The notes under the pieces: generated by a model
The model's database searches: none
What the model saw: the letters and a program-made list of their open reading frames with translations, nothing else
Told to the model about the DNA's origin: nothing
From: Sutcliffiella horikoshii
GTDB taxonomy: Bacteria > Bacillota > Bacilli > Bacillales > Bacillaceae_I
NCBI RefSeq assembly: GCF_019931755.1
Contig: NZ_CP082921.1
Location: 103,861-167,860 of the forward strand
DNA length: 64,000 nucleotides
Direction of reading: 5' to 3'
Part shown: in pieces, positions 30,198 through 51,900 of the stretch
Layout: each line of letters begins with the position of its first letter
Position numbering within the stretch: the first letter of the stretch is position 1
Program-made: the position numbers and the translations under genes

Positions 30198-30221
30198 TTC
30201 CCATACCACCTTTATTGTATT

Positions 30222-31717: not shown

Positions 31718-31805
31718 ATTATCACTCCTTTGTAGATTTTTGTCGAATTTCGTGTATAATTCAATTTTTACGTAGAATTGTAGATTTGTAGTTTCAGAAA
31801 CTAGC

Positions 31806-32702
31806 TTAAGCTGTACTCATACAACATGATTTATACTTTTTTCCTGAACCACAAGGACATTTGTCGTTTCTTTTTATGTTTTTTTCTATAATAAAGTCAT
31901 CTTTGTTCAAATTGATATTGCTAAAAGGCAAGTATTTTGCAAAATACTCTGAAGGTTTTCCGAATAAGAACTCTTTTACGTTTTTTATGAATAGAGATTT
32001 AGGTGAGTATTCCTCTAGTGAAGAAACATATACATTTTGTTTACCTTCCTCAAATTCTTTGGTTTGAAGCCAAGTCATTGCAATTATGCTCCTTATATTC
32101 GGAGGGAAATCACTCCAGTGAGTATCCATCTTCACTTTCATAATGTCACTTACAAATTTATCACCTAATTCGCCTTGAGGTATTGAAAAGTTACCACTTT
32201 CAATAAGCTTTTTAAGGTGATCCCTAGCCTCTTTCCATTCTGAGTTATTAAAGAGAACCATATTAATCTCGGGAATAGTTTCATTGACTATTTGAATTCC
32301 TTCTCTCATATTAATATTTTCAGAAGGGGACTTTTCAAATTCCATAGACAATATTAATAAATAAATAATAACTTCAATAGGTATTGATTTTCCTATTATT
32401 AAATCATTAATCTCTAATATAGTGATTAAGCCTTTCTTATCTATATTTATTATTACAGCGTACAATTCTCTAGGTTTTTTATCTTCATGTTTATCTGCAT
32501 CTCCTGACAAACCTGAGTAATTTCCTGGCTTTCCTTTACCAAGATCTAATCCGGCATGCATAGCGTTTGTAAGAGCTTTTACTAAAGGGTGTGGTTGGTA
32601 TGAAGAATTCCTTTTAATTTTCCTAAGTGAATAATTAAGATAGGCTTGTAAACTATATTTAAACTCTGTCCAGGCTAAGACTTTTTTGTTATTTTCGTTC
32701 AA
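31806..32702 (-). CDS. SEC-C motif protein, partner of the membrane protein
   Basis: 298 residues starting at TTG 32702 after AGGAGTGAGG, just after the stop of the preceding gene (coupled). The last 20 residues form a canonical SEC-C zinc motif (KCPCGSGKKYKSCC). The rest is helical and lacks known motifs; the segment HPLVKALTNAMHAGLDLGKG is the most conserved-looking part. SEC-C tails occur in SecA and in many uncharacterised proteins, including ones from defence islands. With the upstream membrane protein it forms a two-gene cassette of unknown role. Confidence 0.7.
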   Translation of the reverse strand: MNENNKKVLAWTEFKYSLQAYLNYSLRKIKRNSSYQPHPLVKALTNAMHAGLDLGKGKPGNYSGLSGDADKHEDKKPRELYAVIINIDKKGLITILEINDLIIGKSIPIEVIIYLLILSMEFEKSPSENINMREGIQIVNETIPEINMVLFNNSEWKEARDHLKKLIESGNFSIPQGELGDKFVSDIMKVKMDTHWSDFPPNIRSIIAMTWLQTKEFEEGKQNVYVSSLEEYSPKSLFIKNVKEFLFGKPSEYFAKYLPFSNINLNKDDFIIEKNIKRNDKCPCGSGKKYKSCCMSTA

Positions 32703-32703
32703 A

Positions 32704-35059: not shown

Positions 35060-35890
35060 TTAATTTGTTAACCTAAAAGTTCCGATACTTCCCGCTATAT
35101 AATTTTTAAATTCATTTTTATAATATAAATCTAATGCTTTAGTATTCTTTTCATAAACATACAATTCTAGTGTTTTGTATCTATTTTCATGTAAAGAATT
35201 AGAACTGTGTTCTAGTACTTTTCTCCCTAACCCTATCCTTTGATATTCTGGATGTACCATTAAGTGTAATAAAAACGGCCTACCATCTCTTAATGTTATT
35301 ATTGAAGCTGCAATAATTTTATCTTTTTTTTGATCAAGTATAACAAATGATGAATCTTGTAATAAGTGACCTTGCTTATTAGAAAAAATACTGTCAATTT
35401 GCTTTGTTACTTTTTTCATATCAAAGCTTTTATTTTTTTCTAGGTCATAGGAATCTTTCATCAGGATTGACAGCTTTTCCTTTAAAGAATTATTTAGTTT
35501 TAAAAACTCTTCGCTTTTTCTTATCTTTTTACAATTTAACGCTTTACATAAATAAAAACTATTATAAAAATACTTTACTTTTTTGTATTTTTTTAACAAC
35601 TCCACATTCTCTACGCTCAATAAGTATATTGCCGAAAAATCCGTACTATTATTTACTGCATATTTGTAGATGCTATCTATTGCTAGTTCATTGTGTTCAC
35701 GTGAAATTATATTTATATCTTCAATCCATAGTTCCGTTCTATCTCTAACTACAGTGGAAAAAAAGCCTATTAATTTGTTATCTAATAATTGTATATAGAA
35801 TTTTTTATTTCCAGTATAGTGCTTTAAGTATTCCTGACCTAAAAAGCATGATAATGTCGATGTATCTTTTAAATGGTTTATCGTTATCAT
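35060..35890 (-). CDS. GNAT N-acetyltransferase of the RiPP cluster
   Basis: 276 residues with a C-terminal GNAT domain. The acetyl-CoA loop is MVHPEYQRIGLGRKVLEH, followed by LELYVYEKNTKALDLYYKNEF. The N-terminal half is a degenerate GNAT-like half. ATG 35890 has GGGTGAT at 7 bases; an ATG 15 bases upstream is possible. It is last in the minus-strand RiPP operon, one base after the exporter gene. It may acetylate the mature peptide's N-terminus, as GodH does in goadsporin synthesis, or inactivate it inside the producer. Confidence 0.78.
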   Translation of the reverse strand: MITINHLKDTSTLSCFLGQEYLKHYTGNKKFYIQLLDNKLIGFFSTVVRDRTELWIEDINIISREHNELAIDSIYKYAVNNSTDFSAIYLLSVENVELLKKYKKVKYFYNSFYLCKALNCKKIRKSEEFLKLNNSLKEKLSILMKDSYDLEKNKSFDMKKVTKQIDSIFSNKQGHLLQDSSFVILDQKKDKIIAASIITLRDGRPFLLHLMVHPEYQRIGLGRKVLEHSSNSLHENRYKTLELYVYEKNTKALDLYYKNEFKNYIAGSIGTFRLTN

Positions 35891-35906
35891 TACTGTATCA
35901 CCCATT

Positions 35907-37124
35907 TTAAAAATTTGAATTTATAACTTTTTTGTTTGTTATTTCTAAACTTGAAAAAGGTTTATGTAATAAAACAACAATTGTTGAAATCGTTCCTAAT
36001 ATTGAAAATAATATTAGGGTATTCTGGATCCCTATATAGGTTGTTATTATTCCACCTAAAACAAAACTAATTAAAGAAATAACTGAAGTAATGGCCATGG
36101 TTACAGATCTGATTCTACCCATATTATTAATTTCAACATTACGCTGAATTAAGGTTGTAAAAGGTATATTAAAAACTGTTACTGCTATACCTATGAATAA
36201 TAAGCAAATTAATGAGACGACTAGACCACTACTTAATCCAAAGACAAGCATTACAATTCCTTGAAAAAGACATGATAGTATATAAATAAGGCTTAATCGA
36301 TTAATATTAAATTTTGCTAAAAATAAACTTGATAGTAGTCCTCCAATTAGCAGGGCATTTTCTAACATTGTAAATGTTAATGAATCACCATTAAGTATAT
36401 TAATAGCATAAGGAGCTAATATAAATGTTATAGGTGCAATAGAAATATTAGCTGATATTGCCATTGCAATTAGACCCAAAAGCCATTTATTTTCTTTTAT
36501 ATATACTAAACCCTCTTTCCATTCTACAATATATTTTTTAACCACCCTGTTTTCGGTCTGTTGATTTCCCTTTAACTTAACGGCCTTAAATAACAACACT
36601 CCAATTAAATAACAAATCGCTTGCAGAAAGAATAAACCTTTTAAACTTATAAAACTAATTAGAAATCCCCCTATAACCATACCCAAAAACATACTAAAGT
36701 TATTCATAAAGTTTAATAACGAATTCGCTTGAGTTAGGTTTTTATCCTCTACAATTTGAGGGATAATTTTTGTTGAAGATACATTAGATAAACTTTCGGG
36801 TAGAATTTGTAGTACTATTACTAAAAAAACAAATATGGTAGGTAATTCAAAAAAGCTAAATAGCAACCCTACAAAAAGTAATAAAATGAACCTGAATACC
36901 ATTGTATTAATAATTATTTTATCTGAACGATACCTATCAGCAAACGGACCTAAAAAAGTAAAACTAATAAATCTGGTTAAAAAAAATGTGAAAGTTAAGA
37001 GAGAAACAACAAACTCTGAATATGACAAAGATATCACCCAATAAATTCCTATATATGAAATCGAAGAACCTATTATTGATATAAATCGAGTTATTGCAAA
37101 CATAAAAAAGTTTAAGTTGTACAA
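35907..37124 (-). CDS. MFS exporter of the RiPP cluster
   Basis: About 405 residues with twelve predicted membrane helices of the major facilitator type. FADRYRSDK in the loop after the second helix is the MFS motif A, and a long basic central loop (KAVKLKGNQQTENRVVKKYIVEW) divides the halves. Probably exports the modified peptide and gives immunity. TTG 37124 after GGAGGGAG fits best; a GTG at 37142 is possible and would overlap the LanKC-like gene by 14 bases. No ABC transporter or protease is in the cluster. Confidence 0.8.
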   Translation of the reverse strand: MYNLNFFMFAITRFISIIGSSISYIGIYWVISLSYSEFVVSLLTFTFFLTRFISFTFLGPFADRYRSDKIIINTMVFRFILLLFVGLLFSFFELPTIFVFLVIVLQILPESLSNVSSTKIIPQIVEDKNLTQANSLLNFMNNFSMFLGMVIGGFLISFISLKGLFFLQAICYLIGVLLFKAVKLKGNQQTENRVVKKYIVEWKEGLVYIKENKWLLGLIAMAISANISIAPITFILAPYAINILNGDSLTFTMLENALLIGGLLSSLFLAKFNINRLSLIYILSCLFQGIVMLVFGLSSGLVVSLICLLFIGIAVTVFNIPFTTLIQRNVEINNMGRIRSVTMAITSVISLISFVLGGIITTYIGIQNTLILFSILGTISTIVVLLHKPFSSLEITNKKVINSNF

Positions 37125-37128
37125 ATCT

Positions 37129-39510
37129 TCAACTCCCTCCACTCCTGGAAAGTAAATATGCTACCAAAGCAGTATAGACCCCAACCTCCCCCGTTGAATA
37201 GCTAAGGATAGATTCATTAGCCTCATTAAAAAATGAAAAATATCCATTTGGGTTTTTGGTTTTCCTAAGAAGTATATTTTGTAATAAAAGTTGCTTTTCT
37301 TTTGTTAAATTTTTTTCAAGAATCTCTTCAATTTTTAATATCACTTCTAATGCAGAACTAACACCATGACAGTGTATTAAAGGCGAGTTTATTTCTTGTG
37401 ACAATGTATATGAAATTTTCAATAAAATATTTTTCAGCTCTTGAGAAGGACATATTTTATAAAAGTTAATTAAAAATAAAGAGATACCACATGTACCATG
37501 ACACCAATAATAAACCTTCTCCTTACCATCAATAGTCTTTGGCCAATATATGTGAGTATCATTTTCAATTCTCGTATTCATTAGAGTCATATAGATTATT
37601 TCAATAGTCTCTATTATAGATTTATCTTTCGATATTAAATAAATATCTATTAAAAAACTTCCTATTCCTGCTATTCCATGAGCAAAACCTAAATATTGAT
37701 TTTTATCAATACATTCCCACGATATACTTTGGTCACTTAGATTAGCTTTTTCTATTATTAAATGTGCAATGTAGATACTTTTCTCCATATAAATAATTTC
37801 ACCCGTCTTGCGATATAGAGAATTATTAACACTCCCAATTCCCGCCAAGCCGTCTGTATAATCACAATTGTAAATTCCCTCTAAGTTAATACTATTCATT
37901 ATTTCTTTTGCATTCTCAATATAGGTCGGATTTTCCTCAATTTCAGATACTTTTAAGAATACCGATGCTATACCACTGGTACCATAGTATAAGCCTGGTT
38001 GAAAAAGATCTCCCCAATGGCTATATTCTTGATATAACCAAGTACATACTTTTAATATATTCTCCTTATGTATATCATTTTTTTTATATTTATAAGCATC
38101 TATCAATAAATATATTACTCCCGCTACGCCTTCAGCAAAAGTTAGTTGTGGAATTTCAACATTAGCCAATTCAGGCCAACACCATAAGCTTCTATTAACA
38201 TCCAACTTCTCGTGTAGTTTTAAGACATATCCATCTATCAATTCATCTATTTCGTAAAACAATTCACTATTATTTAAACCACCTATAAGCTGTAAATGTT
38301 TATCATTATTAAAATTTAACCCATTAGATTCAAGTAAAACATTTAATTTCTGAAGTTCGATATTGTTTTTTAAGTAAGAACTAATAATTTTATCGACATT
38401 TTCTCTAATAATTAAGTCAAGATCTATCGAAGTGATCAATTTAAATGCAAAACTTTTTACAGCTTTATTTTGCAATAAAAATGCCTTATGAGCATCATAT
38501 TTCAAATCGTAAAATGAAATATCAAAATAAGTAATTTGATAATGTTTATTTATCCAAATGCTATTGTCTTTTAATTTTTCAATATAAAACCCATTTTCAT
38601 TAATTACTTTTAATATACCAATAAATTGTTGTATTAAAGAGATTACTTCAATACTTGAAAAGTTCTTTCCATTTTTTTTTCTTACTCTTTCTAAATTAAC
38701 TAATGGAAATTCATCTCCTCCACTTCGAATGGTATAAAAAGCTAGATTGGTACATTTTCTATCTACCGAAGGAAACAATTCACTTTCTATTAATTTATAT
38801 TTTTCCAATAAATGTTTTGTTAAATGTAGTTTTTTATAAAGTATTTGCTCATGTATAAAACTCCTTTCACCATTTGGGTGCTTGTTAATAAACACTTTTT
38901 TATCTGGTTGCTGGTATACAATCGTTGCACCAGTTAATAATAAATCTGTTTTTTTGTAGGTTCCTTCATATGGACTAGGAATCCAATCGGGAATAATACC
39001 ATTAATATTATAGTCATCTAATATCAAATTATTATTTGAATTTACTATTGCCGGTTGGGGTGATCCTAACAATCCTTGAATATAGATATTATTAATAGAA
39101 CCATATCGAAAATATATACTAGAGCTTTCCTTAAATGAATATGCATTTCTTATTAAGACACCACTAAGATCTTTAGTTTTTTCTTTGAGTAATTCACAAG
39201 ATTCCATAAAATTATCAACTCTATTAATTTTAAGTGTGATAATTACTCCAAAGTTTTTATTGGTTATAGATTCACTGTATATTTTTTCTGGATTAGTATT
39301 TACTAAAAAATCATTACCCAGATCAATTAAATCATTCCACACCTCTTTAATTAATTCCTCAGCAGCCTCTCTCTTACTAGTTAAGTATATTTTCCAACCT
39401 TCATTGTTTTTCAAACTAGTTTTATTATTCTCAATTAGTAAGTAATCAGCAGTTGAGACTAATTTTAATTGTTTAATATTTTTTGAAAGGCTAAAAATTA
39501 ATTGTTTCAT
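37129..39510 (-). CDS. LanKC-like protein: lyase-like, pseudokinase and LanC cyclase domains
   Basis: 793 residues. The N-terminal ~200 match the class III lanthionine synthetase start (NEGWKIYLTSKREAAEEL, later SSSIYFRYG). The middle corresponds to the kinase: VFINKHPNGER retains the lysine region, but the catalytic HRDxSPNN loop is replaced by IEKLKDNS and the metal motif by YFDIS. The C-terminal LanC cyclase is intact: FAHGIAGIG near 611, zinc ligands in YYWCHG (about 671) and IHCHG (about 712), and YTDGLAGIG. It probably closes thioether rings on dehydrated residues made by the separate LanB-type pair and no longer phosphorylates. ATG 39510 follows AAGGAG. Confidence 0.8.
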   Translation of the reverse strand: MKQLIFSLSKNIKQLKLVSTADYLLIENNKTSLKNNEGWKIYLTSKREAAEELIKEVWNDLIDLGNDFLVNTNPEKIYSESITNKNFGVIITLKINRVDNFMESCELLKEKTKDLSGVLIRNAYSFKESSSIYFRYGSINNIYIQGLLGSPQPAIVNSNNNLILDDYNINGIIPDWIPSPYEGTYKKTDLLLTGATIVYQQPDKKVFINKHPNGERSFIHEQILYKKLHLTKHLLEKYKLIESELFPSVDRKCTNLAFYTIRSGGDEFPLVNLERVRKKNGKNFSSIEVISLIQQFIGILKVINENGFYIEKLKDNSIWINKHYQITYFDISFYDLKYDAHKAFLLQNKAVKSFAFKLITSIDLDLIIRENVDKIISSYLKNNIELQKLNVLLESNGLNFNNDKHLQLIGGLNNSELFYEIDELIDGYVLKLHEKLDVNRSLWCWPELANVEIPQLTFAEGVAGVIYLLIDAYKYKKNDIHKENILKVCTWLYQEYSHWGDLFQPGLYYGTSGIASVFLKVSEIEENPTYIENAKEIMNSINLEGIYNCDYTDGLAGIGSVNNSLYRKTGEIIYMEKSIYIAHLIIEKANLSDQSISWECIDKNQYLGFAHGIAGIGSFLIDIYLISKDKSIIETIEIIYMTLMNTRIENDTHIYWPKTIDGKEKVYYWCHGTCGISLFLINFYKICPSQELKNILLKISYTLSQEINSPLIHCHGVSSALEVILKIEEILEKNLTKEKQLLLQNILLRKTKNPNGYFSFFNEANESILSYSTGEVGVYTALVAYLLSRSGGS

Positions 39511-39536
39511 CAATATCTCCTTAAAGAAAGGTTTTA

Positions 39537-42161
39537 TTATTGACTGAAGGTAATATCATGCTCTATTAAAATTTCCGATACGTAACTATTTTCATTACCA
39601 TCAAATATAATTAAATCATCTTCAGACGGTAGCATTTCTGTAATCTCTAACCCTAACTCACAATTTTCTAATATTTTTGAAAAAAGTTTAATTGAAATAG
39701 AATTAGTAATATCAACATATTGCGGTTTCTTTAAATCTTTTCTTTTCAAGTAATCATCCACATCTTTGTATTCACAGATAATTCTAATAAAAAAGGTTTG
39801 AGGTAAATTATTTACTTCAAAAAAATCCATTAATTCCATTTGATATTCAAAGAATGAGAGCCCATTTCTTTTACGGGGAATATAATTCTTATTAATTTTC
39901 CAAGTTCGTCTTTTTAATATTAATTCGCCTAATTTCACTCGTGGGTAATACTTTAAATCTTTTATCTTATTAAAATCTTCGCTCTCTGAAAAAATAGGAA
40001 GACCTAATGGCGAGGATTGATTGAACGTAAGTAAAAAATTATAAAATAGCGGTTTTAGATTATCTACTAAAAAACCAAAATTTAATAATTTCACCTCGAC
40101 ATTTTTAACATTATCAAATAAAACCAATCGTTTCTGAATACTGTCATATTTTATAAACAAATCTTTAATCTTTAACTTATTAGTATCTTCTTTTCTACCT
40201 TTTACATTTCCATATTCTATTTCATATTTGCACAAATCTGGGTGTAGATTGGCATTAAATCCAAATACAGATACTAGTTCGGTATAATTATCCTTTTTTA
40301 AATCATTTTTAACTTTTTGGTATAACATTTCAATCGAGGATTCTTCTAGGTTTAAAAATCTTGAATAATAGTGCCCACATCCATCAACAATACCATTAAG
40401 TACCCCCATTAATTGTTGTTCAGGCTTCTTAGACTTGAAAATTTGCAAGAAAAATCCTCTAGAATCTTTTTCTACGTTTAACAATTTCTCAGATTCTAAT
40501 GATAAATTAAACATTTTTTCAAAATCTAATTCAACTTCTGTTGCAGAATCATCATATATACTATTAATATAATTATCAAAATAGTTTCTTATCTCTTCTG
40601 CTTTTTTGATTTCTGGTAAGTTAAACGGATTATTACTTAAATTTTCCAAATATGAAGCATTAACCTTTAAGGCATTAAACTTCGTCATATCGTTCAAATA
40701 CATTTGAAAGAAATCTAATACATTAATTTCAGTATTTTTTCCTAGTTTAGATATATAAAATTCCCTCATAGAAAATCTGGTTAGTAACCTTTGATCAAAT
40801 GCCCATGATATTTTATGTATAATATTTAGAGATTCCTGTAAAGATTTAATTTCTCCATTATTAATGTTAAGATTCGAACCATCAGTAATTAATGCAGCGT
40901 CTTCATATAAAATATTCTTATAATCAAAATTTATTTCATATTGTAAGAATAACTTTTTCAAGCTGTTTTTAACGCAATTATGAATTTCTGATTTTTTAGT
41001 AAAACTTTCTATTTCCAAATTATTCAAAAGGGATATTTTGTTTTTAATACTTCTAAATGTATTAACTATATTTACAACCTCTGATTCGCTAAACTTACTA
41101 AAGTAAGCTATTAACTTTCCTAAAATATCTGTTTCTTGTTCTGCTATTGGTAAATAAATGTTAATAATATTTTGCTTATACAATTTAATTATAAATTCAT
41201 TGGCGATTTCTGGTGGATAACCATTACTAGTAAGAAAATCACTTAAATCATTTACTGTTATTTGTTTTTCTCTTATAAACTTAACTATAGTATCCAATGT
41301 ATTGTTGTTTTTAATTGTTATTATTGAATCCCTATATTGTAATATTACACCCTCTATTAATTTCTCTAGAGTGTTTTTTATATATATTGCTTTTTGTCCA
41401 TTGCTGATAAATGAAGGATTGACTTCTAATAAAAAATACCTATTCAACTTAGTTGACTTTAACTTTTCAATAAAAAATAATATTACAGAGTAGTTAATAT
41501 TCATGTTATTTACAGCTTTAGGTTTATTTATTATTAGTGAGGTTTTTTTATTATTAATCTCTAAAAGTGTAACTAATGTTAATGTAGAAAATGGGCTTGT
41601 TTTTGTAATAGCTCTTGATATAAATTTATAAAATGAAATTTCGGATTTTCTAAGTTTTTTATTATCGTGAGGGTTAGGATGTAGTATATATTTTCTAAGG
41701 TTTTCTGTTAAATTTGTAGAAGATGATACCATTCCATTTACTATTAATGGATTTGTTAATATTTCTTTAATATTATTATACGTCTTATTTTTTTCATCAA
41801 AGTATCTCTCCATATCTTTTAGAAGAATGTGTTTTTTATTTATGTACTCTAAATATTTTTGAATTTTATTTTTCAGTTCTACTTCTAGTACATCTAATTC
41901 ATATTTATCTAGATTTTTTTCATTGAAGATATCTCTTTTTAAAGAAAGTAATACTGCACTATTGTTTTGGACTTCGCTAATTAAAGCGTACAAATCATCA
42001 CAAATTACACTCTTTATCCTCTCTATATTTTCATTTAACTCAAAATACAACTCTAAGGTTCTTCTATGTTGAATGTCCATGACACTCTTTAGACTATTAA
42101 AAGAGACTGGAGCTAACCTGAGCATTGCGTAGTCCTTTAATTTACTTTTCATTTTAGACAT
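39537..42161 (-). CDS. LanB-type dehydratase, glutamylation domain (Lant_dehydr_N / TclK-like)
   Basis: 874 residues. It opens like the family (DYAMLRLAPVSFNSLKSV) and contains SFYKFISRAITKTSPFSTLT (about 185-205), the conserved block of Lant_dehydr_N proteins, and SPLGLPIFSESEDF, PRVKLGELILKRRTWKI towards the end. These enzymes use glutamyl-tRNA to activate Ser/Thr of the precursor. As in thiopeptide and goadsporin clusters the elimination domain is encoded separately (46363-45482). ATG 42161 has GGGGAGTG. Very AT-rich. Confidence 0.87.
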   Translation of the reverse strand: MSKMKSKLKDYAMLRLAPVSFNSLKSVMDIQHRRTLELYFELNENIERIKSVICDDLYALISEVQNNSAVLLSLKRDIFNEKNLDKYELDVLEVELKNKIQKYLEYINKKHILLKDMERYFDEKNKTYNNIKEILTNPLIVNGMVSSSTNLTENLRKYILHPNPHDNKKLRKSEISFYKFISRAITKTSPFSTLTLVTLLEINNKKTSLIINKPKAVNNMNINYSVILFFIEKLKSTKLNRYFLLEVNPSFISNGQKAIYIKNTLEKLIEGVILQYRDSIITIKNNNTLDTIVKFIREKQITVNDLSDFLTSNGYPPEIANEFIIKLYKQNIINIYLPIAEQETDILGKLIAYFSKFSESEVVNIVNTFRSIKNKISLLNNLEIESFTKKSEIHNCVKNSLKKLFLQYEINFDYKNILYEDAALITDGSNLNINNGEIKSLQESLNIIHKISWAFDQRLLTRFSMREFYISKLGKNTEINVLDFFQMYLNDMTKFNALKVNASYLENLSNNPFNLPEIKKAEEIRNYFDNYINSIYDDSATEVELDFEKMFNLSLESEKLLNVEKDSRGFFLQIFKSKKPEQQLMGVLNGIVDGCGHYYSRFLNLEESSIEMLYQKVKNDLKKDNYTELVSVFGFNANLHPDLCKYEIEYGNVKGRKEDTNKLKIKDLFIKYDSIQKRLVLFDNVKNVEVKLLNFGFLVDNLKPLFYNFLLTFNQSSPLGLPIFSESEDFNKIKDLKYYPRVKLGELILKRRTWKINKNYIPRKRNGLSFFEYQMELMDFFEVNNLPQTFFIRIICEYKDVDDYLKRKDLKKPQYVDITNSISIKLFSKILENCELGLEITEMLPSEDDLIIFDGNENSYVSEILIEHDITFSQ

Positions 42162-42182
42162 TTAAAATTCACTCCCCATTTA

Positions 42183-43583
42183 TCAAAATCTTGTAATAAA
42201 CATTGGTTGTTCCTTGGAGCTTTTACCAATCTTATAATTAACAATAATATTATCCTTCTTCGTCTTTATCACTCTTTGAATTTCATCTGGGTTGTAATTT
42301 AAAAATGCACAACCTATTAGATTGTGTTTTAACACCAGCCTATATAAAATTTGAATTAGTACTCCTGAAAAATAATGCACTTGTCTATAAGCAATGGATC
42401 CATGTCGAATAATTAACTCTTCTAAATCACAAATAATAAATAAATCTATAAATGAATTATTCAACTTAATATTTTGTTGATATTGTTTCAAAAAATTATT
42501 TTTATCACATTTTAAAACATCTATAAATTCAAATAAATTGCTATTAATATGTGGCATATCTTCAATTTGAAATGGTACAATTTTTAGTTTAAGATTTATA
42601 ATACTATTTATTACTGTTATAAATTTTAGTAATTCCTGGAAAAACCCCTTTAACTGGTCATATGTAGGATTAGTATTGAACTCAGTAATTTCAGAAGACC
42701 TCCTAATATTCACATGATTTATTTCTGGTAAGTAAACAGAAATATTTCTTTGTAAATCGGTGGAAGTAAAAGAAGAATTGTGTATTTTATTTATAAAATC
42801 ACTTACTTTTCTTTCAAATAAACCATCATAATTTGAAAAAATATTCTCAACATCTTTTCCTGAGAAGTAATCCTGAATTCCTATTCTATTATTTCTATTA
42901 TCTGTATCTTTAGAAATTGGATGTAAACCTATTAGTATATTTCCAATCTCACAAAAACTATTTATTCCAAACAATTCTGTTGTTTTTTCTGTATTAAACA
43001 AAGGGAATAATTCCATCTTTAAATTGTTTAAGGATGATTCTAATGCTAATTGCCCTATTAGAGCACCGGTATCAAGTAATTGTAGTTTATAGCTTAAATA
43101 CTTGTATTTATTCCAGTTCTTTATATAGTTTGTGGTGATGAAAATAAATGACTCATTTGTGTTTCTTCCATCCGACTTTATACATTCCAATAGTTGGGAG
43201 AATAACCTCCCCTTTTTAACTAATACGTACTTATCAGTAATTGGATTATAGTGTAAAATAAAGTCATTATCTTCCTTTTTTAAGAATATATATATTTCAT
43301 TAGGATATATTCCCCCTCCCGAAGGAACAGCTCTAAATAATTTGTTATAAGAGTCTTCTGAATAATTAACACTCCCTAAGATACCGTAACTATTTTTAAT
43401 AACCGTATCTATTCCTGGAAAATCACCTTCAATATTTTCACTACTTATAATGTATTCAGGATTATATTTTTTGTTTTTTGGAGGGTTATTAACTGTGATT
43501 GAACTATCAAATCTTTTATTAACATCATTAACTAAATCTGCATATGTAAGTATGCACTCTACTTGTCTGTCAGTTTTAGACAC
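42183..43583 (-). CDS. SagB/McbC-type azoline dehydrogenase
   Basis: 466-residue flavin-dependent nitroreductase-fold enzyme that oxidises thiazolines/oxazolines to thiazoles/oxazoles. Family features include RAVPSGGGIYPNEIYIFL (about 85-105) and LLDTGALIGQLALESSLNNLKM (about 165-190). A second, weaker nitroreductase-like half follows and ends QVHYFSGVLIQILYRLVLKHNLIGCAFL. The start is GTG 43583 after AAGGTGAT. It lies between the YcaO and LanB genes in one operon, so at least some rings of the product are aromatic azoles. Confidence 0.87.
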   Translation of the reverse strand: MSKTDRQVECILTYADLVNDVNKRFDSSITVNNPPKNKKYNPEYIISSENIEGDFPGIDTVIKNSYGILGSVNYSEDSYNKLFRAVPSGGGIYPNEIYIFLKKEDNDFILHYNPITDKYVLVKKGRLFSQLLECIKSDGRNTNESFIFITTNYIKNWNKYKYLSYKLQLLDTGALIGQLALESSLNNLKMELFPLFNTEKTTELFGINSFCEIGNILIGLHPISKDTDNRNNRIGIQDYFSGKDVENIFSNYDGLFERKVSDFINKIHNSSFTSTDLQRNISVYLPEINHVNIRRSSEITEFNTNPTYDQLKGFFQELLKFITVINSIINLKLKIVPFQIEDMPHINSNLFEFIDVLKCDKNNFLKQYQQNIKLNNSFIDLFIICDLEELIIRHGSIAYRQVHYFSGVLIQILYRLVLKHNLIGCAFLNYNPDEIQRVIKTKKDNIIVNYKIGKSSKEQPMFITRF

Positions 43584-43608
43584 TCTATCACCTTTTTATA
43601 ATATTCTT

Positions 43609-45477
43609 TTATGAGAATGGGTGTACATTATTATAGAAAACAAAATTATTAAGATGTGTTCTTTTGTTAAATTTTTCAGGTATTCTGAAATTTTTCGAGC
43701 CAAATGTCATTGGTAAGAGTTCCGGTATCAATGTTTTTACACAAAATAAGTTTGCTAGTTCCAGCTCTTTACAAGTAATATCAATAAAGTACACATTAAG
43801 TTTAAAATGCTCAAATAGATTAAGAATCGATTCAAGGGCTTCATTAATTGAAGTATAATTTTTAGATGGCACATTTCTTATATCATACACTGGGAGGTTA
43901 TTCTCGAAAATAAAATTAAAAGAAGAAAACATTTCAATGTTAGTATACAGAAGTGCATGATCTTTAATATCACTTACTTTTTCAGGATTTTCATATAACT
44001 CTTTTGCTCTTTTTCTATCAACATCCCAATTATTCACCCCATGATGTACGAATCCGGCCAATTCTTTTAATGCACTATTTAGAGCTTTTATTGGGTCAAA
44101 ATGTGCTGCAGCAGCTGAAAACGATTTAGGTAAGGATTTATTACTTTTACTATCAGCTAATACCCAAATTGCAGTTATGCCAAATTCTGATGTAATATCT
44201 AACACATTTATATTATATCCGTAAGAAGCAATATCATTTATTCTGTTCCTTGCTTCTAAATCTCTAATAGATTTAATGTCAATTATTCCTTTTACTTTTT
44301 TTGTATACCAAGCTAACAAAAACGCATCTCTTTCAATTAACTCAAAAATAGCATAAGTAATGGCTTCTTCAAGACTACCTCCTACTGCACAACCATTTGA
44401 TGAGTTGTATATAAATTTTTCTTCATTAATACTCGAATAATAAGCAAACTGCTCAGGAATATACACCTCTTTTTGTAAAGTCAAATCCATACCCTTAATC
44501 CACCTTATTGTTAATTCGTTACTAAATTTCACATAAGAAGATTCTATTACTTGATTGTCATTAAATAGAACGAACTCAGAGGGATCAATCGACTCACCAT
44601 TTAAATCATTTCTATTTGATACCACTACTTCTTTTCCTCTATTTTTTCTTCCTGCAAATCTCTCTATACCTTCAAGTATTGAAACTAATCTACTTAACTT
44701 AAAAGCCGATTCTCTTCCACAGCCTATATCTTGCTCATTTGAAAATTCTAAAGGCAACCTGGCTATAGTCGCAGCGCTACCTTCACAATAATAGTCATTA
44801 ACGTCATCAATTATTCCGTAATTGTCATCAACGAATAATTCCTCAAGATCCTGTTGTTTAGGACTAATATTATATGTCCTTAATAAAGAATTAGTATTAA
44901 GTGAGTAGTTTATTTTCGGAAGGTTTAAGAAACACATTTTACAGATTGAACAATATTCATTTATAATAAATTTATGTCTGGTGAGTTTTGAAGTGTTACT
45001 ATATAAATGATAAATTTCAAGGTCATTTTCTAAAGCTTCTCCACTTTTATATTGAATAATTTTCTTAGAAATTATGCCACATACATAGTCAATATTAATA
45101 AAATCTGTTCTATGTGAATTCAGGACAGTTTGTTTTGTTGGTATAACTTCTTTAACATGTGAATTATTATACCTTCTATAATCGGCACACTTTACACATC
45201 CTTTATTAAAACCATTAAAATATGGTCCAATTAAGATTTCTTGAAGTTCGAATCTTATTCTGTAATAGCTTTTCATTCTATTAATGCAATAATTTGTAAT
45301 ATCGTATTCAGTATCAATTTTAGATTCATCTAATAAACTAATTATTAGTCCTATGTTACTAGATTCAATTTTTTTTGATGACCAACATTCCTGATGAAAT
45401 AGTGTGAATTGTCCTTCTAACATCTTATTAATTTTTACAAAAAATTTTCTCGGACCTACTAATAAGATATTTTCCAT
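43609..45477 (-). CDS. YcaO azoline synthetase fused to a precursor-docking domain
   Basis: 622 residues. The N-terminal ~210 form the TOMM leader-docking/E1-like domain with Cys pairs GCVKCADYRR and YCSICKMC as a zinc site. The YcaO domain begins near 235 with GCGRESAFKLSRLVSILEGIERF, followed by NSSNGCAVGGSLEEAITYAIFELIERDAFLLAW, which carry the ATP-binding glutamates. It converts Cys (or Ser/Thr) of the precursor to azolines with ATP. The C-terminus is HPFS instead of the proline-rich PxPxP ending of many azoline-forming YcaOs. ATG 45477 follows AAGGTGG. It needs the ocin-ThiF F protein encoded at the head of the operon. Confidence 0.9.
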   Translation of the reverse strand: MENILLVGPRKFFVKINKMLEGQFTLFHQECWSSKKIESSNIGLIISLLDESKIDTEYDITNYCINRMKSYYRIRFELQEILIGPYFNGFNKGCVKCADYRRYNNSHVKEVIPTKQTVLNSHRTDFINIDYVCGIISKKIIQYKSGEALENDLEIYHLYSNTSKLTRHKFIINEYCSICKMCFLNLPKINYSLNTNSLLRTYNISPKQQDLEELFVDDNYGIIDDVNDYYCEGSAATIARLPLEFSNEQDIGCGRESAFKLSRLVSILEGIERFAGRKNRGKEVVVSNRNDLNGESIDPSEFVLFNDNQVIESSYVKFSNELTIRWIKGMDLTLQKEVYIPEQFAYYSSINEEKFIYNSSNGCAVGGSLEEAITYAIFELIERDAFLLAWYTKKVKGIIDIKSIRDLEARNRINDIASYGYNINVLDITSEFGITAIWVLADSKSNKSLPKSFSAAAAHFDPIKALNSALKELAGFVHHGVNNWDVDRKRAKELYENPEKVSDIKDHALLYTNIEMFSSFNFIFENNLPVYDIRNVPSKNYTSINEALESILNLFEHFKLNVYFIDITCKELELANLFCVKTLIPELLPMTFGSKNFRIPEKFNKRTHLNNFVFYNNVHPFS

Positions 45478-45481
45478 TTTA

Positions 45482-46363
45482 TTACCACCTTGTATTTAAG
45501 TTCCTATATAATATTAAACTAACAAGAACTTCATCCTTTGGCTTTATTCCAATTCGATTATTGTTCATATGTATATAACTACTACTCATCTCTGCCGCTT
45601 TTTCCTTTGTAATATATTTCTTGTTAACAAGAGTTGTTAAACTTTCAAGATGTTCACAAACTAATTCTTCCCATATTTTTGTATAACCATTGGCAGCTTC
45701 AAATCTAAACTTCTGATGTGTTTCTTTTGAAGTTGAGAGGATTTTGCTCTTAAATTTCCCATCATTGAAAAATTCCAACCAACTATTTGCATAAGAATAA
45801 GCATATTTGGCAGGATCAATTTTGTAGTACTCGCAAAACTTAGTAATATATAAATTCATAAAATTATATGCTATTATTAACTTTTCATAATATGAAAGTG
45901 ATCTTATAGATAATATTTTCATAATTAGCAAACTTGACTTATAAAAAAACTCCTCAGAAATCCTAATTCCTTGAGAACCTCCATACCTTTCAATTTCTGG
46001 GTTGTATTGTTCCCAGATTGCCCTATTATTCAATTGAATCTTTTTAGAACCTACGTTTTCCTTATTGACCCAGTAATTATAATCTTTATCATCGATTAAT
46101 CTTTTGCTTGATGGATTTTTGTTTAAAAAATCCCCAACCACACTAGTAATATATTGAAGTTCATTTGAATTAGAATTCTTTTTATTAAAGCTAAATCTAA
46201 CCCTTAAGTGATTACCTTTCTCCCAATATCGAATAAAAAAAAACTTACACAATTTATCGGTATCTAATAAGTTTGAAATTATTGGATTTAGTAAATTCTT
46301 AATTAAGTAATCATGTTTTTCGAATTCCTGGTAATAAATATGTAAACTTTTCCATTCTACCAT
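45482..46363 (-). CDS. Thiopeptide-type SpaB C-terminal-domain protein (LanB eliminase or cyclase)
   Basis: About 293 residues of the Lant_dehydr_C / thiopeptide-type biosynthesis family: WKSLHIYYQEFEKHDYLIKNLLNPII at the start, FFIRYWEKGNHLRVRF, and YGGSQGIRISEEFFYKSS. Members either eliminate glutamate to give dehydroalanine/dehydrobutyrine (TclL) or form the pyridine macrocycle (TclM). Only one member is present, so elimination is the more likely role. ATG 46363 has GGAG at 6 bases; an ATG at 46375 is possible. First enzyme gene after the precursors, separated by a hairpin. Confidence 0.82.
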   Translation of the reverse strand: MVEWKSLHIYYQEFEKHDYLIKNLLNPIISNLLDTDKLCKFFFIRYWEKGNHLRVRFSFNKKNSNSNELQYITSVVGDFLNKNPSSKRLIDDKDYNYWVNKENVGSKKIQLNNRAIWEQYNPEIERYGGSQGIRISEEFFYKSSLLIMKILSIRSLSYYEKLIIAYNFMNLYITKFCEYYKIDPAKYAYSYANSWLEFFNDGKFKSKILSTSKETHQKFRFEAANGYTKIWEELVCEHLESLTTLVNKKYITKEKAAEMSSSYIHMNNNRIGIKPKDEVLVSLILYRNLNTRW

Positions 46364-46384
46364 TTCATTCTCCATTTCTTAAAA

Positions 46385-46415
46385 AGGGATACAATTAAAA
46401 AATAATTGTATCCCT
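46385..46415 (-). terminator. Hairpin between precursor genes and enzyme genes
   Basis: Perfect 13-bp stem AGGGATACAATTA / TAATTGTATCCCT with a 5-base loop and TTTT on the minus strand. It probably ends most precursor transcripts and lets a fraction read into the enzyme genes. Confidence 0.8.
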
Positions 46416-46443
46416 AATTTATTAATTTATATAATATTTCTCA

Positions 46444-46596
46444 TTATGCACTCTTTTCTAAAGGACCCATATCAGGGGAACATGATGTACCGTTACATGC
46501 ACTACAGAACCCTACTTCTGGCAAATCGCCATCTAGTAAATCAATATCTTCAATCTCTGGTAGTTCTAAATTTTCTAATTTCATTTTCAAGTTCAT
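46444..46596 (-). CDS. RiPP precursor peptide 1
   Basis: 50 codons from ATG 46596 with a near-perfect AAAGGAGGTGAT binding site. An acidic leader (LENLELPEIEDIDLLDGDLP) resembles thiopeptide/TOMM leaders. The putative core after EVG contains CSACNGTSC followed by SPDMGPLEKSA: three Cys, four Ser and one Thr available for azoles, dehydro residues and thioether rings. It is too short for standard gene calls and overlaps longer spurious frames on the other strand. It lies inside the biosynthetic operon next to its paralogue. Confidence 0.85.
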   Translation of the reverse strand: MNLKMKLENLELPEIEDIDLLDGDLPEVGFCSACNGTSCSPDMGPLEKSA

Positions 46597-46705
46597 CTTA
46601 TATCACCTCCTTTCATTTTTTAGGAACTTATAATATTCCAACAAAACAATACCAATATCACAAACGCTTGGTATAATGCTAAATATATTTTTCACTGTCA
46701 ATTTT

Positions 46706-46858
46706 CTATAAGCTTTTTTCTAAAGGGCCCATATCAGGGGAGCATGATGTACCGTTACATGCACTACAGAACCCTACTTCTGGTAAATCGCCATCTAATA
46801 AATCAACATCCTCAATCTCAGGTAATTCTAAGCTCTCTAATTTCATTTTCAAGTTCAT
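46706..46858 (-). CDS. RiPP precursor peptide 2
   Basis: 50 codons from ATG 46858 with AAAGGAGGTGAA. The leader differs from precursor 1 by a few conservative changes (Asn9 to Ser, Ile18 to Val) and the core is identical except for the last residue (Leu instead of Ala). It is directly downstream of the ocin-ThiF gene (4 bases after its stop). The duplication raises precursor dosage for one product rather than giving two different peptides, unless the final residue survives. Confidence 0.85.
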   Translation of the reverse strand: MNLKMKLESLELPEIEDVDLLDGDLPEVGFCSACNGTSCSPDMGPLEKSL

Positions 46859-46862
46859 TGAA

Positions 46863-48449
46863 TTATTCACCTCCTTTCAAATTTATGGAAACTAAATTAA
46901 TTCCTAAACAATGCCCTATACAGCAATGCTCAGGTTTAATGATTGCTGTTATTCCTTTTTCTCTTAAACTACTCTTCAAAATTTTGTAAGCTTCTTTATA
47001 CTTATTTTCGATATTGAAAAGATTAGACTTCGCTTTTTCAGATTCTAATGTCTTAATTATAGCTTTAACACTAGAATCATTTAGATCCACTCCAACAGAA
47101 CTAATTTTGGTCCCATTATAAAGATATATACTAGTTTCATATAAGGCATTTTCAACCAATTCAAAATGTATTATTTTTGTATTTTTGTGTTTTTCTTGAA
47201 GGCTTAGGTATAAAAAAGAAGCTTCCTGAGAGTAGTTTTGACATTCAACTTCAACTTTCTCATATAAACCTTCTAATAATTGAGAATTTAATAATGCTTT
47301 ATATGCAGCCTCTTCATAAGTAATACCTGTTCCATAAACATTACCTCCTTCTTTGTCCTCAATTCTCTCGCATAAGGCAGAATATAGAGCATCTAAATAC
47401 TTTACACCATATCCCTCATACCTATTTCCAGTTGCCCTATCACTTATTAAACTTCTTTTTAGAGGCATTTGTACTATTTCTAAATATTCTTCATCTAGTA
47501 AGTTATTTAATTTTAAAAAATCTTTTACGTTCTTTACCCATTCCGAAGAATTAGAATTGGTAGAGGAATTCGACTTCCTACGCTTTATATAATTTCCTGA
47601 TGGTAAGTTAATCTTTCGATATGTTAAATCACTTAAATTTAATTTATAAAAAGGATATTCATCATCACCGCTAGGGGATACCACAGATAAGAACGCTTTA
47701 AATGCAATAATACTAGAAATCATTTTCTCCTCAATTTTTCCTAGTTTAACTTCATTAACATACTTATTAATACAATTTAAACAAGGTAGCTGATCAACTT
47801 TTAAGCCAGAAGTGAAAATGTTGTTTATATTTAATATTACTTTTATATTTTTATTTTTAATCATATGTATATATTTCAAAATATTCTGTACACTTCCATT
47901 AATATTTAAATAGATTATTGTTTGGAAATTGTTAAGTATCTCCAAATCAATCCCTGTTATAAATTTCATTTTAGTAAAATTATATAACGGTGAGTTTTGG
48001 TAAATGGTCACTGAGTTTGCCCCATTTTCTAATAAAAAATCTCCAACGTAAATTGGCATAATACCCTCACCGATTATAAGAAAGTTATGATTTCTAAAGT
48101 TATTAAATACTTTAATTGGGTTAGTTTGTAACTCTTCTACAAATGAAATTTGTGATTTGAATCTAGTATAAATATCATTATCAATTGTTTCATCAGTCGA
48201 AATATCTCTTATTAAATCAATATCATAAAGTTTTTGAATTATATTTTTTACAATTTCTTTATGCTTCTGATTTTCTACGTTGCGAATAATTTCTTCAATG
48301 GTAAACTCTCCATTTAGAATTGGTTTTAATAATTCTAACCAAGCTCTAATTCCCTTACCTTTTATCTTATAGTTTTTCTCCCTTGTTGAAATTAATAATC
48401 CATCCTCAACTTCAATATAATTGAAATTATCTCTAATTTTAGGTTTCAT
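46863..48449 (-). CDS. Ocin-ThiF-like F protein of the azole synthetase
   Basis: 528 residues of the thiazole-containing bacteriocin maturation family. It binds the leader and presents the precursor to the YcaO enzyme. The N-terminal part (MKPKIRDNFNYIEVEDGLLIST, KGKGIRAWLELLKPILNGEFTIEEI) is the usual opening with the leader-binding RRE-like region, followed by a ThiF-like Rossmann part (FLIIGEGIMPIYVGDFLLENGANSVTIY). CLNC and CCIGHC are possible metal sites. ATG 48449 matches the family start; the binding site GAGGGG is close. It heads the operon, divergent from ileS. Confidence 0.85.
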   Translation of the reverse strand: MKPKIRDNFNYIEVEDGLLISTREKNYKIKGKGIRAWLELLKPILNGEFTIEEIIRNVENQKHKEIVKNIIQKLYDIDLIRDISTDETIDNDIYTRFKSQISFVEELQTNPIKVFNNFRNHNFLIIGEGIMPIYVGDFLLENGANSVTIYQNSPLYNFTKMKFITGIDLEILNNFQTIIYLNINGSVQNILKYIHMIKNKNIKVILNINNIFTSGLKVDQLPCLNCINKYVNEVKLGKIEEKMISSIIAFKAFLSVVSPSGDDEYPFYKLNLSDLTYRKINLPSGNYIKRRKSNSSTNSNSSEWVKNVKDFLKLNNLLDEEYLEIVQMPLKRSLISDRATGNRYEGYGVKYLDALYSALCERIEDKEGGNVYGTGITYEEAAYKALLNSQLLEGLYEKVEVECQNYSQEASFLYLSLQEKHKNTKIIHFELVENALYETSIYLYNGTKISSVGVDLNDSSVKAIIKTLESEKAKSNLFNIENKYKEAYKILKSSLREKGITAIIKPEHCCIGHCLGINLVSINLKGGE

Positions 48450-48571: not shown

Positions 48572-48599
48572 TATTATTATTAGGAATTATCAGTTTATT

Positions 48600-48846
48600 T
48601 CATTGACGAGAAAAAGTAGGCCATTATCCCTGTCCCCAGAGAGTCGCTGATTGCTGAAAGGCGACGACAAATTTTGGCTGAAAATCATCTCTGAGAAGTT
48701 CTTCCGAACATAGCTTATAGTAAGAAGAACCGGCATACGGCCGTTATCCGTACTATTAATTAAGAGCCGTGTCTAAATATACACGGAATATGGGTGGTAC
48801 CGCGGATTCACTCCGTCCCTGGTTTTTTTCAGGGACGTTTTTTACA
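48600..48846 (+). promoter_or_regulatory. T-box riboswitch, isoleucine specificity
   Basis: The leader has the T-box sequence GGGTGGTACCGCGG (48792-48805) whose UGGU would pair with an uncharged tRNA acceptor end bearing discriminator A, and a terminator GTCCCTG / CAGGGAC followed by TTTTTT (48815-48843). An ATC codon in the GAAAATCATC segment near 48692 is a plausible specifier for tRNA-Ile. Uncharged tRNA-Ile should switch on the downstream synthetase, so inhibition of the host enzyme would induce it. Confidence 0.9.
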
Positions 48847-48903
48847 TTTTCAGGGCTATATAAAAAAAGTTTGTTTAAATAATATGGTTATGAGGTGGAT
48901 AAA

Positions 48904-51900
48904 ATGCTTAATGTAAATACGAAAGAATTAGCTTTAGATCGTGAGAAACGGATTAAAAATTACTGGAATGCAGAAAATGTATTTTTCCGTTCAATTGAAA
49001 ATAGAAACGGTGAAAAATCTTTTGTATTCTATGAAGGTCCTCCAACAGCCAATGGGCTACCGCACGCTGGTCATGTCCTAGGACGTGTAATTAAGGATTT
49101 CGTTGCACGATATAAAACCATGCAGGGCTATCAGGTATTTCGCAAGGGCGGCTGGGACACACATGGTTTACCAGTTGAACTTGAAGTGGAGAAGCAACTA
49201 GGAATCTCAGGAAAGCAACAAATTGAAAAGTACGGTGTTGAGAAGTTCATTGAAGAATGTAAGAAGAGTGTTTTTAACTATGAAAAACAGTGGCGTGAAT
49301 TTACAGAGTCTATTGGTTACTGGCTCGATATGGATAATCCCTATGTTACGCTTGAAAACAAATACATTGAAAGTGTTTGGTATATCCTAAGTAATCTTCA
49401 TAATCGTGGACTTTTGTACAAGGGTCACCGAGTGACGCCATATTGTCCTAGTTGTCAGACTACATTAAGCTCTCATGAAGTAGCCCAAGGCTATAAAGAT
49501 GTCAAAGACCTTTCTGCTACAGCAAAATTTAAGGTTTTAGGTAAAGAAAACGAATTCTTCTTAGGTTGGACAACAACTCCCTGGACCTTGCCGGCAAATG
49601 TAGCGCTAGCTGTAAACACTGAGCTAATATACATAAAAGCTAAGAAGGATGATGAGATATACATTGTTTCAGAAGCTTTAGCAGAGAAAAACCTTGGTAA
49701 AGACTTTGAAGTAATATCTAAACATAAAGGAAGCGAATTGATAAATATCAGATATACAGCACCATTTCCATTTATGAAACCTGAGCGTGGTCACTTTATT
49801 GTCGAGGCAGATTTTGTTAACAATAAAAGTGGTACTGGTATTGTCCACATCGCACCCGCCTATGGTGAAGATGATTATAATTTAGTTAAAAAAAATAATC
49901 TCTCTTTTTTCAATATTGTTGATGATCAAGGGAAATATTTAAAGGATATCCCTATTTTTGCTGGTCGTTTTGTGAAAGACTGTGACGTTGATATCGTAAA
50001 ATACTTAGCAAATTCAGGACTTCTTTTCCATAAAGAAAAATATAATCATAGTTATCCACATTGTTGGCGGTGTGACTCTCCATTACTTTATTATGCTATT
50101 GAAAGTTGGTTCATTAAAACTACAGAGTTAAAAGATAAATTCTTAGAAAACAACCAGGAAGTTGACTGGTATCCAAAACACATAAAAGATGGACGTTTTG
50201 GAAACTTTCTAGAAAACATGGTTGACTGGAATATAGGTAGAAATCGTTACTGGGGGACTCCACTTCCTGTATGGATTTGTGATGATTGTGATCACCAATA
50301 TGCCCCAGATAGTATGGAAAATCTTCAAGAAAATGCTATAGGTGAAATTAGGGACTTGGATTTACATAAGCCTTATGTAGATCGAGTTCAACTAAAATGT
50401 AAAAAATGTAAAGGTACAATGAATCGTGTTTCAGAAGTGATCGACGTCTGGTTTGACAGTGGTTCTATGCCATTTGCACAGCATCATTATCCGTTTGAAA
50501 ACAAAGAACAATTTGAAAAACAGTTTCCTGCAGATGTAATCTGCGAGGGAATTGATCAAACCCGCGGGTGGTTTTACAGTTTGTTAGCTGTTTCTACGTT
50601 GTTTACGGGTAAACTCCCTTACAAACGAGTTCTTTCAACAGGGCATATTTTGGATGAAGAAGGGCGTAAAATGTCAAAAAGCAAAGGAAATGCACTTAAC
50701 CCAATGGAACTAGTTAATAAGTTTGGTGCGGACGCCTTGCGTTGGGCACTTTTAGCTGATAGTGCACCATGGAATAATAAGAGATTTTCCGAGAGGGTCG
50801 TGATGGAAGCTAAATCGAAATTAATTGATACTCTTGTAAACACTCATGGCTTTTACACGCTTTATGCTAATATCGACGGGTACCATTTCAATGAGAGTGA
50901 AGTTGGTGAGAAGACACTACTTGACCATTGGGTTATATCTCGTTTAAATAGTGTTTCCGCTGTTGTAAATGATGCATTGGATGAATACGACTTTACAAAA
51001 GCCGCGAAAGCACTAGAAAAATACGTAGATGATATAAGTAACTGGTACATTCGTCGTTCCAGAGATCGTTTTTGGAAAGAAGGGTTAACAGAATCCAAAA
51101 AAGCTGCTTATCATACACTTCATCAAGTGCTTGTTCAGACGAGTAAGCTTTTTGCTCCCTTTATACCGTTTCTCGCAGATGACATCCATATAAATTTGAC
51201 TGGCGAAAGTGTGCATCTTGCTAATTATCCAAAAATTGATAATAAAAAAGTAGATATACAATTAGAAAGGGATATGGAAGAAGTATTACAAGTGGTGGAA
51301 TTAGTACGTGGGATTCGAAATACAGAAACTATTAAGACAAAACAACCACTATCTCAACTTACAATAATCCCTTCTAACCCAGATAAAGGAAAAAAAATAA
51401 AAGACTACATTAGTATTATTCAAGATGAGATCAACGTAAAAGAAGTTGTAGTTAAGGAATCTTCTGATCATCTTTTAAGGTATGATATAAAGCTGAACTA
51501 CCGATTAGCAGGACCTGTACTCGGAAATAAAATAAGTGTTGTAAAAGCTTATTTAGAAACGATGTCTGATGAAGAAGTAGCAAAGGTTGTTAAAGGTGAT
51601 AAGGTAATCATACCCAATGCTGATGGAGAGATTGAGGTATCGCTAGATTTACTAAATATCGAACGTGTAGCTGATTCCGGCCTTTCAATGGAATCTAATC
51701 AAAACTTTCACGTTGTCCTAGATACGACAATCACTGAAGAGCTTCGACTAGAAGGGTTGGCTCGAGAAGTGATTCGAGTTATACAAGATGACCGTAAAAA
51801 ACAAAGTTTACCAATCGATCTTCGTGTTGACATTACCCTTGATGGAGACGAAGATGTAAAGAAAGCAATTCAACAAAATGAGAATGTGATACGTGAAAAC

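Follow-up and report, generated by a model that had tools for sequence, protein, structure and literature searches.

The 64,000-nt window of Sutcliffiella horikoshii analysed here (the whole stretch of DNA; contig NZ_CP082921.1, positions 103,861 to 167,860) contains a cluster of ten genes for a ribosomally synthesised and post-translationally modified peptide (RiPP). The cluster probably encodes a natural hybrid pathway, in which azole formation, dehydration and thioether closure would take place on one core peptide. The genes follow one another in the same direction on the minus strand from 48449 down to 35060 (13.4 kb), with every frame open and gaps of -14 to 26 nt between the SpaB_C and GNAT genes. 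The cyclase gene starts 26 nt past the LanB-N gene and overlaps the MFS gene by 14 bases. The features are as follows:

46863..48449, minus strand: ocin-ThiF-like F protein (TIGR03693 E 5e-16, 58 bits; ATG at 48449, with GAGGGG before it)
46706..46858, minus strand: precursor peptide A, 50 aa (open reading frame with a GGAGG site; weak NF033400 thiazolyl_B match)
46444..46596, minus strand: precursor peptide B, 50 aa (open reading frame with a GGAGG site; NF033400 E 4.6e-4, under cut-off)
46385..46415, minus strand: 13-bp hairpin followed by UUUU, putative leaky terminator (folding energy against shuffles)
45482..46375, minus strand: SpaB_C, TclL-type glutamate-elimination half of a split LanB (PF14028 E 5e-41; TIGR03891)
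43609..45477, minus strand: YcaO cyclodehydratase (PF02624; TIGR03604 259 bits, cut-off 219)
42183..43583, minus strand: SagB-type azoline dehydrogenase (TIGR03605 86 bits, cut-off 78.4; no Pfam match)
39537..42161, minus strand: LanB N-terminal (glutamylation) half of the split LanB, LanB-N (PF04738 E 5e-22)
37129..39510, minus strand: LanL/LanKC-derived protein with an altered RamC_N, a degenerate kinase and a LanC domain (PF25816 and PF05147, no Pkinase)
35907..37142, minus strand: major facilitator superfamily (MFS) exporter, for predicted export or self-protection (PF07690 E 2e-29)
35060..35905, minus strand: GCN5-related N-acetyltransferase (GNAT), for predicted N-terminal acetylation or self-protection (PF00583 E 9.5e-12)

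The first-pass annotation of this DNA had listed an F protein, a YcaO, a dehydrogenase, a split LanB, a LanC protein, an MFS exporter and a GNAT in one operon, and all of them were recovered by Pfam or NCBIfam matches, that of the F protein being below its cut-off. It had not mentioned the two 50-codon precursor genes between the F gene and SpaB_C. The two precursors are identical at 47 of 50 residues and differ at 3 positions. Precursor A consists of MNLKMKLESLELPEIEDVDLLDGDLPEVG followed by FCSACNGTSCSPDMGPLEKSL, with the predicted cleavage site between them. The leader is acidic and ends in LLDGDLPEVG, and the predicted core, FCSACNGTSCSPDMGPLEKSA/L, has 21 residues, including three Cys, four Ser and one Thr; only its last residue varies, being A in precursor B. 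The search for precursor homologues returned a sole cluster (P0097; three member sequences on two contigs), identical to precursor A. The hairpin, located between the precursor and enzyme genes, has a folding energy of -18.2 kcal/mol (z -3.6; 1 of 200 shuffles equally stable). The terminator scan, whose rule requires five T, reports it on the plus strand only, the minus strand having four U; it is possibly a leaky terminator that boosts precursor over enzyme transcripts.

The enzymes were compared with those of two Bacillota thiopeptide plasmids, pBac115 of Macrococcoides caseolyticum and that of Lactobacillus paragasseri JV-V03, which we take to be the micrococcin and the lactocillin plasmid, respectively. 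The names TclK, TclL and TclM are assumed here for the plasmid proteins by gene order; in the plasmid records, TclL is labelled "lantibiotic dehydratase C-terminal domain-containing protein" and TclM "hypothetical protein". The F protein, which weakly matches the TclI-position protein of pBac115 (E 6e-4), would bind the leader and act as partner of the YcaO. No other YcaO occurs in the genome, and this one has the residues that are invariant across a 24-row alignment, its nearest relatives outside its own cluster being about 30% identical. As this YcaO is single and a whole-genome search found no TfuA, azoles and not thioamides are expected. For the same lack of TfuA in the genome, a thioamide-forming YcaO was considered unlikely.

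For dehydration, the best PDB match of LanB-N is 6ec7 ("Lantibiotic dehydratase domain protein", E 8.5e-13), presumably TbtB, with a weak match to 9jhq ("Goadsporin biosynthetic protein", E 0.006); it also matches the TclK-position proteins of the two plasmids (E 9e-29 and 1e-7). SpaB_C matches the TclL-position protein of each plasmid (E 5e-28 for pBac115, E 2e-25 for that of L. paragasseri) and the TclM-position protein of neither. It bears the elimination signature YWxxGxHxRxR and HMNNNR, which in nine other TclL-type rows of the alignment reads YWxxGxHxRxR and H(M/L)xxNR; six TclM/TbtD-type rows lack HxxNR and RxR, with WxxGPH retained in some. The best reading of these sequences is that the split LanB dehydrates Ser and Thr by Glu-tRNA-type chemistry.

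Against the pyridine synthase profile (NF045556, cut-off 325), SpaB_C scores 47 bits over profile positions 1-175. The two TclL proteins, used as controls, score 48-49 bits over 1-137 and 1-122, and the SpaB_C proteins of four related loci (L129, L131, L127 and L130) score 52, 37, 25 and 80 bits over 1-167, 1-154, 1-94 and 1-250, while two TclM proteins match over 135-338 (61 bits) and 165-353 (40 bits). The matched region thus tells TclL from TclM better than the score. In the whole genome (99.99% complete), there is no second PF14028 match and no NF045556 match except the N-terminal one of SpaB_C. It had been claimed earlier that a second SpaB-C-like gene, the pyridine synthase, is absent, and that a TclM-like synthase elsewhere would speak against the hybrid pathway; the genome-wide search found only the SpaB_C with the TclL signature, in agreement with the first claim, and no TclM-like protein. 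A pyridine synthase hidden in the cluster or the genome was rejected on this search, the SpaB_C signature and the profile-region controls.

The LanL-derived protein (numbered on a 794-aa frame from TTG 39513; 793 aa from ATG 39510) has a LanC domain (PF05147, 125 bits) and, among the NCBIfam models, scores best with LanL of class IV (165 bits against a cut-off of 650, the match lying in the cyclase part), then with LanKC (128 bits, cut-off 575) and LanM (115 bits, cut-off 304). Its zinc ligands C671, C715 and H716, as well as H612, are retained, as seen in PDB alignments to LanM/LanC-like structures and in relatives. Class III cyclases lack zinc ligands (PMC10604976, excerpt), which makes this cyclase class IV-like. 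Pfam finds RamC_N, a clear Pkinase and LanC in two relatives (L003 and L005), and no Pkinase in the protein of S. horikoshii. The kinase catalytic loop, LRDLTPNN or HRDLTGTN in the relatives, is IEKLKDNS here, with the catalytic-loop Asp replaced by Lys, and the lyase motif WKIH/WKLH is WKIY. The protein looks like a LanL-type enzyme reduced to its cyclase, and presumably depends on the LanB pair for dehydroalanine (Dha) and dehydrobutyrine (Dhb), because its kinase domain is undetectable and the catalytic-loop Asp is gone. Its first description, as a LanKC-like protein with an intact LanC zinc site, holds for the zinc site, but the protein does not look like a working LanKC, its kinase being degenerate. 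The sole cyclase relative at E 1e-5 among 8000 scored candidates is a protein of Sutcliffiella cohnii, 96% identical and with the zinc residues retained.

The co-occurrence of these genes, for which a neighbourhood search had been suggested, was surveyed in related loci. With the cyclase as query, five other matches were found in 397 Bacillales genomes (E 1e-10) and two others in 398 Bacillota genomes (E 1e-8); six of these seven places had no YcaO or LanB match in neighbourhoods of 10.8-20 kb, the seventh (G230) being outside the count. Among plasmids, no accession was common to the 19 LanKC-like records and the best 60 of 117 YcaO-like records. The LanC profile matched none of 95 YcaO loci (80 genome contigs, 2 plasmids and 13 others); as expected, it matched the 96th locus, L138, which had been included on account of its LanC-type protein and is without a YcaO match. 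As a leave-out control, the profile recovered three relatives that had not gone into it (E 1.1e-21 to 4.7e-31) and a fourth (E 5.6e-76); it could miss distant class I LanCs, because the control relatives had all been found originally with this cyclase. SpaB_C and LanB-N matches occur together in one of the 80 YcaO genome contigs (L060, Nonomuraea), and the remaining ones are mostly plain azole-type clusters. The gene combination is thus rare in this sample, in which actinomycetes are hardly represented, and its uniqueness is unproven.

TIGR03891 matches were found in 27 of 397 Bacillales genomes. The loci extended include nine in which SpaB_C stands alone in a frame of 290-320 aa and one in which the frame has 229 aa, and YcaO and LanB-N matches are present in all nine. 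A pyridine-synthase-like (TbtD-like) neighbour of 354-393 aa was found in 6/6 split-LanB loci tested (L127 and L129-L133, one neighbour protein per locus; L134-L136 are outside the count). These six proteins match the C-terminal part of NF045556 at 113 to 26 bits (E 2e-32 to 4e-6, cut-off 325). The loci L127 and L129-L136 are thiopeptide-type clusters in Bacillales genomes, with thiopeptide-like precursors at L129, L131 and L133-L135; those of L129 and L131 are duplicated and end in SSGSSGDKVYSTCGSSSCCSSCCT (or DNVYST), and those of L133-L135 are triplicated. At L128, a repetitive Cys-rich peptide (CFSCFSC...; 11577-11873, minus strand), which we take to be of the heterocycloanthracin type, adjoins YcaO and SagB matches.

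Because of the gene content and the pattern of losses and retentions, the combination of azoles, dehydration and thioether closure on one core is the most likely reading of the cluster. In this pathway, the F protein would bind the leader, the YcaO would convert some core Cys to thiazolines and the SagB-type enzyme would oxidise them. The split LanB, with its glutamylation half and its TclL-type elimination half, would convert Ser and Thr to Dha and Dhb via Glu-tRNA, and the LanC domain would join a remaining Cys thiol to Dha or Dhb in a thioether ring. The GNAT would probably acetylate the N-terminus and the MFS protein export the product. That one core serves all the enzymes is inferred, as are the step order, any allocation of the three Cys to azoles or a thioether, the cleavage site and the acetylation. 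The peptide with thiazoles, dehydro residues and lanthionines that had been proposed earlier is accordingly still the best reading of the gene set, its thioether being a prediction.

Several observations weigh against this pathway. A YcaO of thiopeptide type might use up every Cys of the core, of which there are only three, so that LanC would have no thiol left. The precursors match thiazolyl_B (NF033400) at 20.1 and 16.9 bits (cut-off 30), precursor A having been scored on a 54-aa frame, and the TIGR03693 match of the F protein is partial and far under the cut-off of 562. The YcaO ends in VHPFS, compared with PHPFP in two thiopeptide YcaOs, a change that might weaken it. In the LanL-derived protein, the DFG-like Asp of the kinase region (FDISF) and the lyase residues Lys41 and Arg136 are retained; ThurKC requires Lys65 and Arg163 (PMC10604976, excerpt), to which they may correspond, as judged by position only. 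Relative to S. cohnii, 22 of 439 N-terminal residues and 11 of 354 residues of the LanC part differ, and with p 0.21 a differential constraint on the LanC part is not shown; co-conservation is also thin, with a single other occurrence seen.

A more specific proposal, possible though doubtful, is that the LanL-derived cyclase replaces the pyridine synthase of a thiopeptide-type pathway that retains its azole formation and LanB dehydration. The product would then be a thioether-closed thiopeptide analogue with a lanthionine-closed macrocycle (e.g., Dha3-Cys10 around a Cys5 thiazole), the kinase having been lost after the gene moved beside a Glu-tRNA dehydratase.

The best surviving alternative, which is unlikely, is a goadsporin-like linear peptide, N-acetylated and with azoles and Dha/Dhb, whose LanL-derived protein would be a vestige, or a scaffold for leader binding or dehydration, and would form no thioether. 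Goadsporin and spongiicolazolicin clusters likewise have the azole set, a split LanB and an acetyltransferase, and the three Cys could all become azoles. To our knowledge, those clusters have no LanC protein and their core is unlike the one found here. The absence of a lanthionine cyclase, as far as is known a goadsporin-type trait, does not apply to the S. horikoshii cluster, which has a PF05147 domain with zinc ligands. A precedent for the scaffold is CcaM, a Lan-type protein with a zinc-free cyclase-type domain that gives Dha in azole peptides (PMC10676384, excerpt). Unlike CcaM, the LanC domain retains three zinc ligands and a nearby His both here and in S. cohnii, and its gene is tightly placed between those of LanB-N and the MFS exporter.

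Another alternative, a thiopeptide in which some other operon protein closes the pyridine, is very unlikely. The Bacillota thiopeptide plasmids have a YcaO, a split LanB with a TclL-type SpaB_C, a dehydrogenase, an F-type protein and a short acidic leader, as found here, five protein types being common to the cluster and to thiopeptide clusters; in addition, the leader end LPEVG resembles the LPE-type leaders of L129 and L131, and SpaB_C has its 47-bit match to the pyridine synthase profile. That match is limited, however, to the N-terminal part also matched by TclL proteins, it is the only one genome-wide and the protein bears the elimination signature, while the six related loci tested have a TbtD-like protein in addition to their SpaB_C. 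The plasmids have a TclM-type protein, for which no counterpart was found here; the S. horikoshii cluster has a protein with a LanC domain. The core composition differs as well, without the Ser-first, Ser/Cys-rich pattern of the precursors of L015, L016, L129 and L131. In terms of class traits, the cluster shares with thiopeptides the YcaO with ocin-ThiF F protein (under cut-off) and the TclL-type split LanB, and lacks their [4+2] pyridine synthase.

It is equally improbable that the cluster is decaying or silent and gives no product with the full set of modifications. The change at the YcaO C-terminus, the kinase loss, the low GC and the single other occurrence would fit decay, but the ten frames are open and tightly packed, the cyclase is conserved in the second strain with its catalytic residues, and the zinc ligands stay although the kinase is lost. 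Least probable is that the azole and lanthionine enzymes act on separate molecules of one precursor pool to give two end products: two precursor genes exist, but their cores are identical except for the last residue.

With the hybrid pathway as the preferred reading, the cluster was compared with further known systems. Class IV LanL enzymes share with the cyclase protein the RamC_N, the kinase region and the zinc LanC; unlike in LanL, the kinase is undetectable here, the His of the lyase WKIH is Tyr and the gene adjoins LanB. A working Ser/Thr kinase, which marks class III/IV enzymes (LanKC/LanL), is thus absent as judged from sequence. The class I traits, a Glu-tRNA-type LanB and a zinc LanC, are present, the former split and the latter within a larger protein. 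Pinensin biosynthesis, whose LanC is presumably a stand-alone protein, likewise has a split LanB and LanC activity, and no azole genes. The class I glutamylation and elimination halves of pinensin are on separate chains (PMC7268733, excerpt). Dehydrazoles (carnazolamide) combine azoles and Lan-type dehydration (PMC10676384, excerpt) and also have a cyclase-like domain, as predicted here. There, dehydration falls to a LanM-type domain (DUF4135) joined in one chain with a cyclase domain that lacks zinc, and the leader is a nitrile-hydratase-like leader peptide (NHLP) (PMC10676384, excerpt). None of the eight operon proteins scanned has DUF4135, and the precursors have 50 aa, so that the DUF4135/NHLP-leader combination of dehydrazoles is not found.

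Nocathioamides A-C of Nocardia terpenica are reported to be natural chimeric lanthipeptides with thiazole/oxazole signals (PMC12299652, excerpt), counted under YcaO-TfuA-modified RiPPs (PMC13174530, excerpt); by their published descriptions, they are set apart as actinomycete YcaO-TfuA products from the Sutcliffiella genome, which lacks TfuA. Thiazoline-lanthipeptide hybrids have been engineered with NisB/C and HcaD/F and artificial chimeric leaders, and called "new-to-nature" (Burkhart et al. 2017, via PMC10373908, excerpt; also PMC11048544, excerpt), and YcaO genes were noted earlier in some class I-III lanthipeptide clusters (PMC7268733, excerpt). The statement of the first-pass annotation that no described product class has this complement was therefore too strong, given the reported nocathioamides, dehydrazoles and engineered hybrids. 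In a literature search mostly outside subscription journals, no described natural cluster with a split LanB, an azole set and a LanL-type cyclase was found, and excerpts of PMC10352776, PMC9576775 and PMC5100339 contain no cluster of this kind.

Regarding the genomic setting, GC in 2-kb steps is 24.5-29.0% at 34-48 kb and 31.7-39.5% elsewhere in the window, and this lower GC suggests a foreign origin of the cluster. Divergent from the cluster, at 48594-51993 on the plus strand, are a T-box leader (Rfam RF00230, 146 bits) and a gene for a 1032-aa isoleucyl-tRNA synthetase (IleRS); a second IleRS in the genome has 933 aa and is 32% identical to it. A role of this type-2 ileS as a self-resistance gene is possible but not supported. 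In other genomes of the genus, ileS2 occurs without the cluster: it is present at 56-83% identity in 5 others of 16 genus genomes (six copies), and within 12-20 kb around each copy the sole frame matching a window protein is ileS2 itself (E 1e-5, frames of at least 120 aa). A CBASS-type (cyclic-oligonucleotide-based antiphage signalling system) defence operon with a cGAS/DncV-like nucleotidyltransferase (CD-NTase), an E2-like protein and a patatin phospholipase effector (53198-55722) and the type I restriction genes HsdR and HsdS (56591-60957) are on the minus strand, as are genes at 28974-34062 for a RadC-like protein, a phage-type integrase (30599-31717), a SEC-C protein and a 452-aa protein with no Pfam match. 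With such neighbours, the cluster is possibly part of a mobile/defence island, on a contig of at least 167,860 bases. At 14420-16474 on the plus strand, a 684-aa protein weakly matches mad8 of PADLOC (31.5 bits), and the 1419-aa and 711-aa proteins beside it have no PADLOC match at E 1e-5.

Azole-lanthipeptides as such have been conceived before; what was not found described in the literature searched is a natural cluster that combines thiopeptide-type azole genes with a split LanB and a LanL-type cyclase lacking its kinase. An azole and a lanthionine in one peptide would join two chemistries that usually come from separate pathways, with a cyclase seemingly taken from another antibiotic family. 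Here, a class IV-type synthetase would have been cut down to its cyclase and would work with a dehydratase of class I type, a case relevant to mixing among lanthipeptide classes and thiopeptides. As a natural operon with one short leader for both enzyme sets, the cluster would show how three Cys are divided between a cyclodehydratase and a LanC.

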